Source: Prochlorococcus sp. AG-347-I19
Lineage (GTDB): Bacteria > Cyanobacteriota > Cyanobacteriia > PCC-6307 > Cyanobiaceae
Assembly: GCA_003279105.1 (NCBI GenBank)
Contig: QCBO01000007.1
Coordinates: 1-64,000 of the forward strand
Reading direction: 5' to 3'
DNA length: 64,000 nt
Translations under genes and position numbers: made by a program
Shown: one piece after another, positions 29,486 through 32,083 of the stretch
Layout: every line of letters begins with the position of its first letter
How positions within the stretch are numbered: the stretch's first letter is position 1
The notes under the pieces: generated by a model
The model's database searches: none
What the model saw: only the letters and a program-made list of their open reading frames with translations
Told to the model about the DNA's origin: nothing

Positions 29486-30643
29486 TTAAGAACGAACCTG
29501 CACAGGCATAACTAAATAAGTAAAAGAATTAAGATTATCTTCTGGTACAAAAACAGCTGGAGTAGTTGCAATATTGCACTTTAAAAGTACATTTTCAGAA
29601 GCAATCACTTTTAAACCTTCTAACAGATATCTAACGTTAAATGCAATATCAAAATTTTCTCCAGAATAAGTAACAGGTATTGATTCATTTGCATTTCCAA
29701 TATCTTGAGCATCTGCGCTGATTGAAGCTAAATCTTTATCATCTAATTTAATCTTTACAACACTACTTTGTTGATCAGCCAAAACAGCGATTCTTTCTAA
29801 TGCGTCAATTAATTTTTTCGTATTAAAATTTAGAGTTTTAGAAAAAGAATCAGGAATTAATTGTGAATAATTAGGATAAGTACCTTCTAAAGTTCTTGTA
29901 GTAATTATTTGATTAGAAGATATAAATACTACTTGTCCTTTGTCATAGAAAAGCTTAATTGAATTTTCTGAACTTCTCAAAGATACTAGTTTTTCAATTT
30001 CTCTTAACGATCTAGTTGGGATAGTTACCGATAAATCATCAACACTTGAAGATAAGTTTTCTTTATTTTCTAAATGTTCTTCATTACCAATTAAAGCAAC
30101 TGCCAATCTATGGCCATCTGTAGAAGCAGACTCTAAATAATTTGGTTTGAAGGTAAAATTGACACCTGTAAGTAGTTGCTTTGAATCATCGTTACTACTA
30201 GCAAAAATGGTAGATTTTAAAGCTTTTAAAAAAGAACTAGGATCAATATTCAAAGAAGTACCGCTTTCAACAAATGGTAAATTTGGATATTCATCAGAGG
30301 GGATCCCTTTTAGATTAAAAGAACCTCTGTCACTTTTTATTAGGATATTATCTGAATTCTCGTCTACTTCTAAAGAAACAGGAGTTTCATTAGGTAGTTT
30401 ATTTACTATTTCGGATAAAAGTTTTGAAGGTATCGTAATAGCTCCACTATTTTTAACAGTTCCATCAAAAGAAGTTTGAATTCCTAAATTAAGATCAAAT
30501 CCTGTGACGCTAATTTTATTAGTCCCTTCGTCAGCTGTTAAGAGTATATTTGCAAGAATTGGATGAGTTGGCCTTGTAGCAACTGCTTTGCTTACTAGTT
30601 GTATAGCATTATTTAATTCATTTTGATTACAAATAATTTCCAT
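29486..30643 (-). CDS. dnaN: DNA polymerase III beta subunit (sliding clamp)
   Basis: 385 aa with three clamp domains. The start is MEIICNQNELNNAIQLVSKAV, and motifs are THPILANILL, VTGFDLNLGI, the domain II LLTGVNFTF and TDGHRLA, and the C-terminal LVMPVQVR (usually LVMPMRL). The ring tethers polymerase and other proteins to DNA. It is transcribed leftwards away from the putative origin and heads the dnaN-PRC-purL-purF run. The ATG at 30643 has a good promoter 27 nt upstream. Confidence 0.97.
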   Translation of the reverse strand: MEIICNQNELNNAIQLVSKAVATRPTHPILANILLTADEGTNKISVTGFDLNLGIQTSFDGTVKNSGAITIPSKLLSEIVNKLPNETPVSLEVDENSDNILIKSDRGSFNLKGIPSDEYPNLPFVESGTSLNIDPSSFLKALKSTIFASSNDDSKQLLTGVNFTFKPNYLESASTDGHRLAVALIGNEEHLENKENLSSSVDDLSVTIPTRSLREIEKLVSLRSSENSIKLFYDKGQVVFISSNQIITTRTLEGTYPNYSQLIPDSFSKTLNFNTKKLIDALERIAVLADQQSSVVKIKLDDKDLASISADAQDIGNANESIPVTYSGENFDIAFNVRYLLEGLKVIASENVLLKCNIATTPAVFVPEDNLNSFTYLVMPVQVRS

Positions 30644-30669
30644 CAGAATTTGGAACTTTTTACAAATAC

Positions 30670-30698
30670 AATATACTTTTTTCGTAAATTAAATTCAA
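30670..30698 (-). promoter_or_regulatory. dnaN promoter
   Basis: Reading leftwards, TTGAAT (complement of 30693-30698), exactly 17 nt, then TATATT (complement of 30670-30675). The -10 ends 26 nt before the dnaN ATG, giving a leader of about 20 nt. This is one of the best sigma-70 matches in the window. Confidence 0.55.
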
Positions 30699-30751
30699 TA
30701 AATTTATTTTTTCTTTTTTTCTAATATAAAAAAATAATAAAATTAAAAATT

Positions 30752-30785
30752 TAGTAGTAGTAGTTTTTGTGGGAACTGTGGAATA
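30752..30785 (+). promoter_or_regulatory. DnaA-trio-like element plus tandem DnaA boxes
   Basis: TAG x4 (30752-30763), TTTT, then two back-to-back 9-mers TGTGGGAAC and TGTGGAATA. Order and polarity match the basal unwinding system described for Bacillus subtilis: A/T-rich unwinding tract, 3'-GAT-5' trios, then DnaA boxes. The spacer here is T-rich instead of G/C-rich. Confidence 0.6.
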
Positions 30786-30979
30786 CTTAAATTAAATAGT
30801 TTGTATAGCTAGTTTACGAAGAAAAGAATATGTGTAAAAAAAGTTTTATTTGTTGAATATTTTTACTTATTTCTAAAAACCTTAAATTTATTCTACAAAA
30901 TAGAATTTCTTATTATTTACTTTTCAACAAATAAGAATTGTTTTTAATTGATTTCCACAGACACTATTTTTTTTGGATT

Positions 30980-32083
30980 TTAATATCCTAAGATTTTAGT
31001 TATATTTTTTAATGAAGGTTCAATATTTTTTCTAAAAATAGCATCGTTATTTTTTATAGCGCAATCAGGATCTTTCAAGCCATTTCCAGTCAGAACACAA
31101 ACAATAGTAGATTCTTTCTGAATTCTATTTTTATTTTTAATTAGTCCAGCAACTGATGCTGCACTTGCAGGTTCACAAAAAACCCCCTCTTTGGCAAGAA
31201 TTTTATAAGCATCGATTATTTCTTCATCTGTAACTGACTGAAAATCTCCTTTACTCTCCTTTCTTACTTTTTTTGCTTTTTCTCTGTTTACAGGATTACC
31301 AATTCTTATTGCAGTTGCAATTGTTTCTGGATCTTTAACTATTATATTTTTTACTAATGGAGCAGAGCCTTCGGATTGAAAACCCATCATTATTGGTAAT
31401 TTAAAATTTCTTTTTATTTTTGAATATTCTTTAAATCCTATCCAATAAGCAGTTATGTTTCCTGCATTACCCATTGGAATACAAAGCCAATCAGGGGCAT
31501 GACCTAAGTCATCAACTATTTCAAAAGCTGCTGTCTTTTGTCCTTGTATTCGATATGGATTAACAGAATTAACAAGCTCTATGGGATGCTCTGAGGATAA
31601 ATCTCTAACAATTTCAAGAGCCTTATCAAAGTTTCCATTAATAGATATTATCTCAGCGCCATACATTAATGCTTGTGCGAGCTTTCCTTGTGCAACAAAT
31701 CCTTCTGGTATTAAAACATAAGGTTTTAATCCTCCTCTTGAAGCATAAGCAGCAGCAGCAGCAGAGGTATTTCCAGTACTTGCACAAATAACTGCTTCAC
31801 TACCTTCTTCTTTAGCTTTGCTAATTGCCATAGTCATGCCACGATCTTTAAAAGATCCTGTTGGATTAAGGCCATCATATTTTAAAAAAACTTTTGTTCC
31901 ATTTCCAATTAAGTTACTAATTGACTCGCTTAAAATCAGTGGTGTATTTCCTTCATTGAGGGAAATAATAGGAGTTTTCTTAGTTACTGGGAGATATTTT
32001 TTATAAGCTTCTATAAGGCCTGGCCATCTTTTTTTTCTATAATTAAAACCCAATTTATCTTTGATTTTATTTAATAACACCAT
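30980..32083 (-). CDS. thrC: threonine synthase
   Basis: 367 aa, a PLP enzyme converting O-phosphohomoserine to threonine. The PLP lysine is Lys79 in [13 protein letters not shown]. The cofactor phosphate loop is [11 protein letters not shown], and [20 protein letters not shown] and [10 protein letters not shown] are typical. The 367-aa length without an N-terminal extension is the bacterial short form. It is transcribed toward the putative origin and lies 6 nt downstream of the DUF1400 gene. Confidence 0.95.

Follow-up and report, generated by a model that had tools for sequence, protein, structure and literature searches.

The 64,000-nt window analysed here, which is the whole stretch of DNA under study (Prochlorococcus sp. 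AG-347-I19, contig QCBO01000007.1), carries in the gap between dnaN and thrC a run of TAG triplets, a short spacer, a pair of abutting DnaA-box-like 9-mers and further box-like sites (Table 1). The consensus used for the boxes, TTTTCCACA, is the cyanobacterial DnaA box (PMC6323995), and both boxes of the pair depart from it, by two mismatches for the proximal and one for the second. The sequence-only reading had described four TAG triplets 4 nt away from two adjacent box-like 9-mers, which direct reading confirmed exactly; the A/T-only tract that it placed across from the boxes was found as the run 30722-30753 on the dnaN side of the module, and the TIGR00663 and TIGR00260 matches agree with its naming of the neighbouring genes. 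By nearest-neighbour stability, no other 100-bp stretch of the window is less stable than the segment 30656-30755, just before the trios, which shares the lowest rank, and the end of this segment ranks among the window's least stable 30-bp stretches. No terminators were found in the dnaN-thrC gap.

Table 1. Features of the dnaN-thrC gap and its flanks in window coordinates; the functional names of the non-coding features are assignments from sequence, and offsets are counted from the second box.
Feature	Position	Strand	Basis or remark
dnaN, beta clamp	29486-30643	-	TIGR00663, 331 bits
Candidate unwinding AT-rich tract	30656-30755	.	Nearest-neighbour stability; ends in A/T-only run
dnaN promoter-like site TTGAAT-17-TATATT	30670-30698	-	Consensus match only, in conserved block
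Putative DnaA-trio tract (TAG)4, TAGTAGTAGTAG	30752-30763	+	Direct read; 3'-GAT-5' x4 seen from the boxes
Spacer TTTT, 4 nt	30764-30767	.	Sequence; length constant, outside the genus mostly GC-rich
Trio-proximal DnaA box, + strand TGTGGGAAC, reverse complement GTTCCCACA	30768-30776	-	2 mismatches to TTTTCCACA
Second DnaA box, abutting, + strand TGTGGAATA, reverse complement TATTCCACA	30777-30785	-	1 mismatch to TTTTCCACA
Third DnaA box TTTTACACA	30831-30839	-	+54 from second box
Weak DnaA-box-like site	30851-30859	-	+74, 2 mismatches
Weak inverted DnaA-box-like site TATTCTACA	30889-30897	+	+112, 2 mismatches
Inverted DnaA box TTTTCAACA	30921-30929	+	+144 here, +143 typical
Inverted DnaA box ATTTCCACA	30951-30959	+	+174 here, +173 typical
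thrC, threonine synthase, other flank of origin gap	30980-32083	-	TIGR00260, 321 bits

One copy of the composite motif (up to 3 mismatches) was found in the window and none in 100 shuffles, and the same counts were obtained for (TAG)4. Across the 1.46-Mb draft assembly TAGTAGTAG is found 11 times and its reversed control 38 times; overlapping copies of it are present at the trio tract only, and (TAG)4 is therefore unique in the draft assembly. A shorter pattern of the basal unwinding system (BUS) gave one match in the genome, its reversed control none. Since the box core TGTGGNAA is not enriched in the window (5 observed, 8.2 expected), the claim rests on the combination of the elements, and single-box enrichment, being without signal, was dropped as evidence. 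Judged by these counts, the combination of trios, spacer and boxes is not a product of chance.

DnaN was found in 96 of the 121 genomes of the genus, the 25 misses all falling outside the 42 genomes with at least 90% completeness and at most 5% contamination, every one of which (42/42) yielded it. The genus sample comprises 95 upstream regions plus the window (96 sequences), three of which end too near dnaN, leaving 93 evaluable. At least 24 of the 27 fixed letters of the 33-bp module, written as TAGTAGTAGTAG-N4-TGTGGAAA-N-TGTGGAA, are kept in 91 of these 93, against a maximum of 18 in 1640 mononucleotide shuffles; as the sequences are related, these counts are not phylogenetically independent events. 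One exception (L072) has its first box cut by the contig end and still shows the TAGs, whereas the other (L097, genome G081), which was retained in the denominator of 93, does not contain the module. On that contig (G081:C30, L150) the upstream frame runs continuously into dnaN as a 624-aa open frame, for which reason the draft contig is probably misjoined. The spacer measures 4 nt in 91/91 sequences, three of its four positions belonging to the module's most variable ones. Going outward from the boxes, TAG is kept in 91/91 sequences at the fourth triplet, 88/91 at the third, 84/91 at the second and 83/91 at the first. A manual tally over the 91 sequences gave 19 base changes in the triplets: 15 replace the third-base G by A or T, one affects the first base (CAG) and three the central A (TTG, TTA and TGG, all in triplet 2). 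The alignment of the gap in relatives thus shows the triplet register, the 4-nt spacer and the tandem boxes kept in 91/93, as the sequence-only reading would have it.

It could be argued that only the DnaA boxes are functional and that the TAG triplets reflect passive microsatellite growth or unselected shared ancestry, given that slippage can create tandem triplets and that the sampled genomes are related. However, no run of five TAGs occurs among the 96 genus sequences, and a copy number that never exceeds four makes the run unlike a slipping microsatellite. Moreover, in the 91 aligned genus sequences the flanking A/T columns vary whereas the triplet columns hardly do, and outside the genus the triplet register persists as TAG/TCG/CCG. 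We consider this explanation extremely unlikely.

According to the published definition of the BUS, a box with at most two mismatches (at most four for its tandem partner) lies within 16 bp of a run of three or more NAN triplets, with a preference for 3'-GAT-5' beside the box, and the trios are on the strand that forms a 5' tail relative to the boxes (PMC8287927). At the Prochlorococcus site, boxes with two and one mismatches stand 4 nt from four TAGs, the proximal triplet is TAG in 91/91 genus sequences, and the + strand reads 5'-(TAG)4-TTTT-boxes-3', an order also seen in the cyanobacterial locus L123. The BUS-like order and polarity proposed earlier are supported by these observations, and the module recurs in many other cyanobacteria as well. 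In B. subtilis, DnaA bound to the boxes extends onto the trios and captures their G and A; the trio centre requires an exocyclic amine, so that A is replaceable by C, and the contacts involve N187, I190, I193, R202 and E228, residues that are not universally conserved (PMC10721633). All five are identical in the DnaA of this genome when aligned to PDB 8btg, which was taken as B. subtilis DnaA because the residue numbering fits. Taken together, the sequence, its conservation, the fixed spacings, the base-specific pattern of substitution and a dnaA that encodes the contact residues lead us to read the module, with a probability of about 90%, as the unwinding end (BUS) of the chromosomal origin oriC.

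We infer that DnaA binds here and grows onto the triplets, that the duplex opens and helicase is loaded, and that replication starts at this site. DnaA would bind the abutting box pair in its double-stranded form, aided by the +54 box and the outer inverted boxes, and from there would span the 4-nt spacer onto the + strand. It would then capture the bases of the TAG triplets, gripping the central A through its amine; the duplex would open toward the AT-rich tract before dnaN, and the helicase would be loaded at the opened tract. The likely origin-opening site of a very abundant phototroph is in this way narrowed to a 33-bp element with rules for its triplet register, its 4-nt spacer and the box at +54.

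The wider box array was counted from the second box in those 81 genus sequences that extend far enough. The third box (at most one mismatch) lies at exactly +54 in 68/81 and within +48 to +65 in 76/81, and it is present in 81/81 when two mismatches are allowed. Among the named loci (best 80 of 556), it is found with up to two mismatches at +50 to +57 in 39 of the 44 that keep the pair, and 13/15 among the 21 class-level loci L122-L142 have it at the same distance. The inverted box near +143 (at most one mismatch, +138 to +155) is present in 66/81 genus sequences and the one near +173, likewise with at most one mismatch, in 68/81 at +156 to +173 and 10/81 at +174 to +191. The two weak sites are less well kept: within +66 to +83, 54/81 sequences have a site with at most two mismatches and 2/81 one with at most one, the corresponding values being 61/81 and 7/81 for the inverted site within +102 to +119. 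These spacings place the module at one end of an array of boxes in fixed phase. Opening in B. subtilis is aided by a box at a distance from #6/#7, probably via a phased DNA loop (PMC6669920), and by analogy the third box may assist opening as the distal Bacillus box does.

The dnaN/threonine synthase gap had been predicted as the Prochlorococcus oriC from GC skew, gene order and DnaA boxes (PMC2836286); the locus is the same as ours, and the passages of that paper do not contain the trios, the spacer or the box array. Prochlorococcus is also described as having no box near dnaA (PMC4674748), which fits an origin beside dnaN. Cumulative GC skew, proposed earlier as a check of the origin, agrees only roughly. 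Its minimum in the window is at 34.4 kb, 3.6 kb from the site, with the switch in the region; in the closed relative G109, whose contig starts 167 bp before dnaN, the minimum falls 40.7 kb upstream of that start, at which the skew value is itself close to the minimum. Minima that are 3.6 and about 41 kb off do not pin the site, and GC skew was dropped as an origin locator, being coarse only. The ORF strand bias around the site was weak and was likewise dropped as evidence.

Many cyanobacteria outside the genus also carry the module ahead of dnaN, and in most of them the 4-nt spacer is rich in G+C. The pattern TAGTAG-N4-TGTGGAAA-N-TGTGGAAA (at most 3 mismatches) matches in 175 of 242 class-level genomes, and its reversed control, by manual count, in 22. 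In the named loci (best 80 of 556), where spacer lengths from 2 to 6 were allowed, 21/80 have trios matching in at least 8 of 9 letters, all 21 with a 4-nt spacer. The locus L123, which we take to be S. elongatus, resembles the Prochlorococcus site in having CAGTAGTAGTAG, the spacer GGGC, a box pair and, at +53, a third box; the boxes of its pair are perfect and its spacer GC-rich, whereas both are degenerate in Prochlorococcus. A genome without a match (G159) nevertheless shows TAGAAGTAGTAG-GCTC-TGTGGTATT-TGTGGTTAA in its gap, so that a non-match is not an absence; several genomes of families f16, f25, f30 and f36 gave no match in the same scan although dnaA is present.

The bases at the triplet centres were counted in 89 picocyanobacterial matches from 150 genomes outside the genus (at most two mismatches, one per genome, irrespective of the distance to dnaN), the pattern fixing the TAG next to the boxes and the G at third positions, with mismatches allowed; matches with three mismatches were dropped because the reversed control also matches in dozens of genomes. 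Among these listed matches the central base of the second triplet is A in 46, C in 43 and G or T in none, and that of the third is A in 54, C in 29, T in 5 and G in 1, so that A or C stands at the centre in 89/89 and 83/89, respectively. Both A and C occur at the second-triplet centre within 7 of 28 picocyanobacterial genera. A to G is usually the commoner kind of base change, and at these centres it is nearly absent among the listed matches. The A/C exchange matches the published amine rule and gives evolutionary support for the triplets being read as DnaA-trios. The rule does not predict the G or T at the third-triplet centre in 6/89 of the listed matches, nor the 3/91 kept genus sequences whose second triplet has T or G as its central base.

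The T-rich spacer had been called atypical in the sequence-only reading. The spacer is indeed TTTT here, so that the length of 4 agrees with the BUS and the composition does not; the BUS spacer is described as GC-rich and 4 bp on average, while the published search rule takes its length only (PMC8287927), for which reason we do not count GC-richness as defining. The mean G+C of the spacer is 0.19 in the genus (92 sequences) and 0.84 in the 89 other picocyanobacterial matches listed. On this comparison the T-rich spacer is a lineage-specific compositional drift with the length retained, and no mechanistic anomaly, which suggests that spacer GC-richness is dispensable in evolution and its length is not.

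Another explanation is that the element is a site for some other regulator of dnaN transcription, its likeness to DnaA boxes being secondary. Strong conservation of the promoter-like block that separates the module from dnaN implies that the control of dnaN is under constraint. However, the same module stands up to about 640 bp from dnaN in cyanobacteria (L129) and elsewhere sits between dnaN and dnaA (e.g., G143), and its substitutions obey the DnaA-trio rules; a dnaN regulator is thus a very improbable account of the module. The block itself (30669-30701, CAATATACTTTTTTCGTAAATTAAATTCAATAA, the 17-bp promoter spacer included) is kept at 33/33 positions in 51 of the 96 genus regions and at 30 or more in 78. 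The promoter-like consensus has 5 matches in the scanned region for 3.9 expected, and the block may hide an operator.

The state of the trios was followed across the class. The dnaA gene scored above the family cut-off in 237 of 242 genomes. Three genomes (G253, G260 and G267) have no credible dnaA and no BUS match better than three mismatches, and G253 has no DnaN match either; in G267 (L147) the 700 bp upstream of dnaN hold one box-like 9-mer with at most one mismatch (TTTTGCACA) and no BUS. In family f31 (14 genomes including G253) the BUS was found in 0/14 with at most one mismatch and in 1/14 with two, and the other 13 genomes have a full dnaA; three of three members compared by DnaN are 93-99% identical to named Nostocaceae. 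Trios were also searched within 1.5 kb upstream of dnaN (less at contig ends) in the named loci (best 80 of 556), of which 50 are presumably Nostocales, the assignment being made from genus names with one checked. Trios of at least 8/9 letters beside a box pair were seen in 2/50 Nostocales and 19/30 other loci, a box pair with weaker trios in 14/50 and 9/30, and no such box pair in 34/50 and 2/30. In Nostocales the trios seem to be lost before the boxes, and, from these loci, trio erosion extends beyond Nostocales.

Nostoc 7120 tolerates deletion of dnaA, and Synechocystis 6803, Nostoc 7120 and PCC 7002 initiate without DnaA (PMC7198777). With dnaA dispensable in several cyanobacteria, the module could be a conserved relic in Prochlorococcus, which would start replication without DnaA. 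Against this, the site and the DnaA residues are strongly conserved, Nostocales, to which Nostoc 7120 belongs, show eroded trios instead, and in Prochlorococcus PCC9511 the dnaA transcripts increase just ahead of S phase (PMC2921402). We therefore hold a relic to be highly unlikely and retain the reading as an active BUS. Between trio loss and DnaA independence the link is correlative, and in some genomes the origin may be away from dnaN. A broader proposal is that cyanobacterial origins test the trio code: (i) the A/C exchange would reflect reading of the amine, (ii) trio integrity would follow DnaA dependence, and (iii) Nostocales would lose trios and then boxes. We offer it tentatively, its chances being a little short of even; if it holds, a cyanobacterium's continuing need for DnaA could be guessed from sequence.

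A BUS was predicted in 1755 of 2070 species, and S. elongatus DnaA required its own boxes and trios for unwinding in vitro (PMC8287927). A trio motif in a cyanobacterium, held earlier to be informative, is consequently less new than implied, although the motif is clear here; the Prochlorococcus site is a well-supported further case of an already known BUS. S. elongatus DnaA unwound with ADP too, and crosslinks of the AAA+ oligomer were undetected for Gram-negative homologs (PMC8287927), which suggests that the filament step may differ from that of Bacillus. Among the papers searched, none has a text that brings together DnaA-trio and Prochlorococcus; supplementary BUS or DoriC tables may list Prochlorococcus. 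As far as we searched, two findings appear to be new, the near-exclusive A/C exchange at the triplet centre in other picocyanobacteria and the presence of intact triplets beside the box pair in only 2/50 named Nostocales loci.

Among the closest known systems is the B. subtilis incC BUS (DnaA-box #6/#7 with DnaA-trios), which likewise has tandem boxes, a short spacer, 3'-GAT-5' repeats and the same strand polarity, and in which an additional box, distal to the trios, contributes in a helically phased manner (PMC6669920). In contrast to incC, the Prochlorococcus spacer is T-rich, the TAGs are four and regular, and dnaA lies on another contig; the third box stays at a single distance, whereas the distal box of Bacillus tolerates many distances and both orientations.

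Some cyanobacteria keep the tandem box pair (named loci L165 and L175; genomes G225, G278, G305, G318 and G351) and have, at the position of the TAG repeat, TTGTACGAC in the five genomes and TATTGTACGAC in the two named loci, which is possibly a divergent trio. A search of viral contigs for the module gave two matches. The first (L237) lies inside a 226-aa frame of a phage contig. The second (L238:3034-3058, - strand) lies beside a lysin-like gene and consists of (TAG)4, the spacer AGCC and two boxes, after which come several TGTGGATAA boxes; it may be a phage origin mimic or a host origin flanking a prophage.
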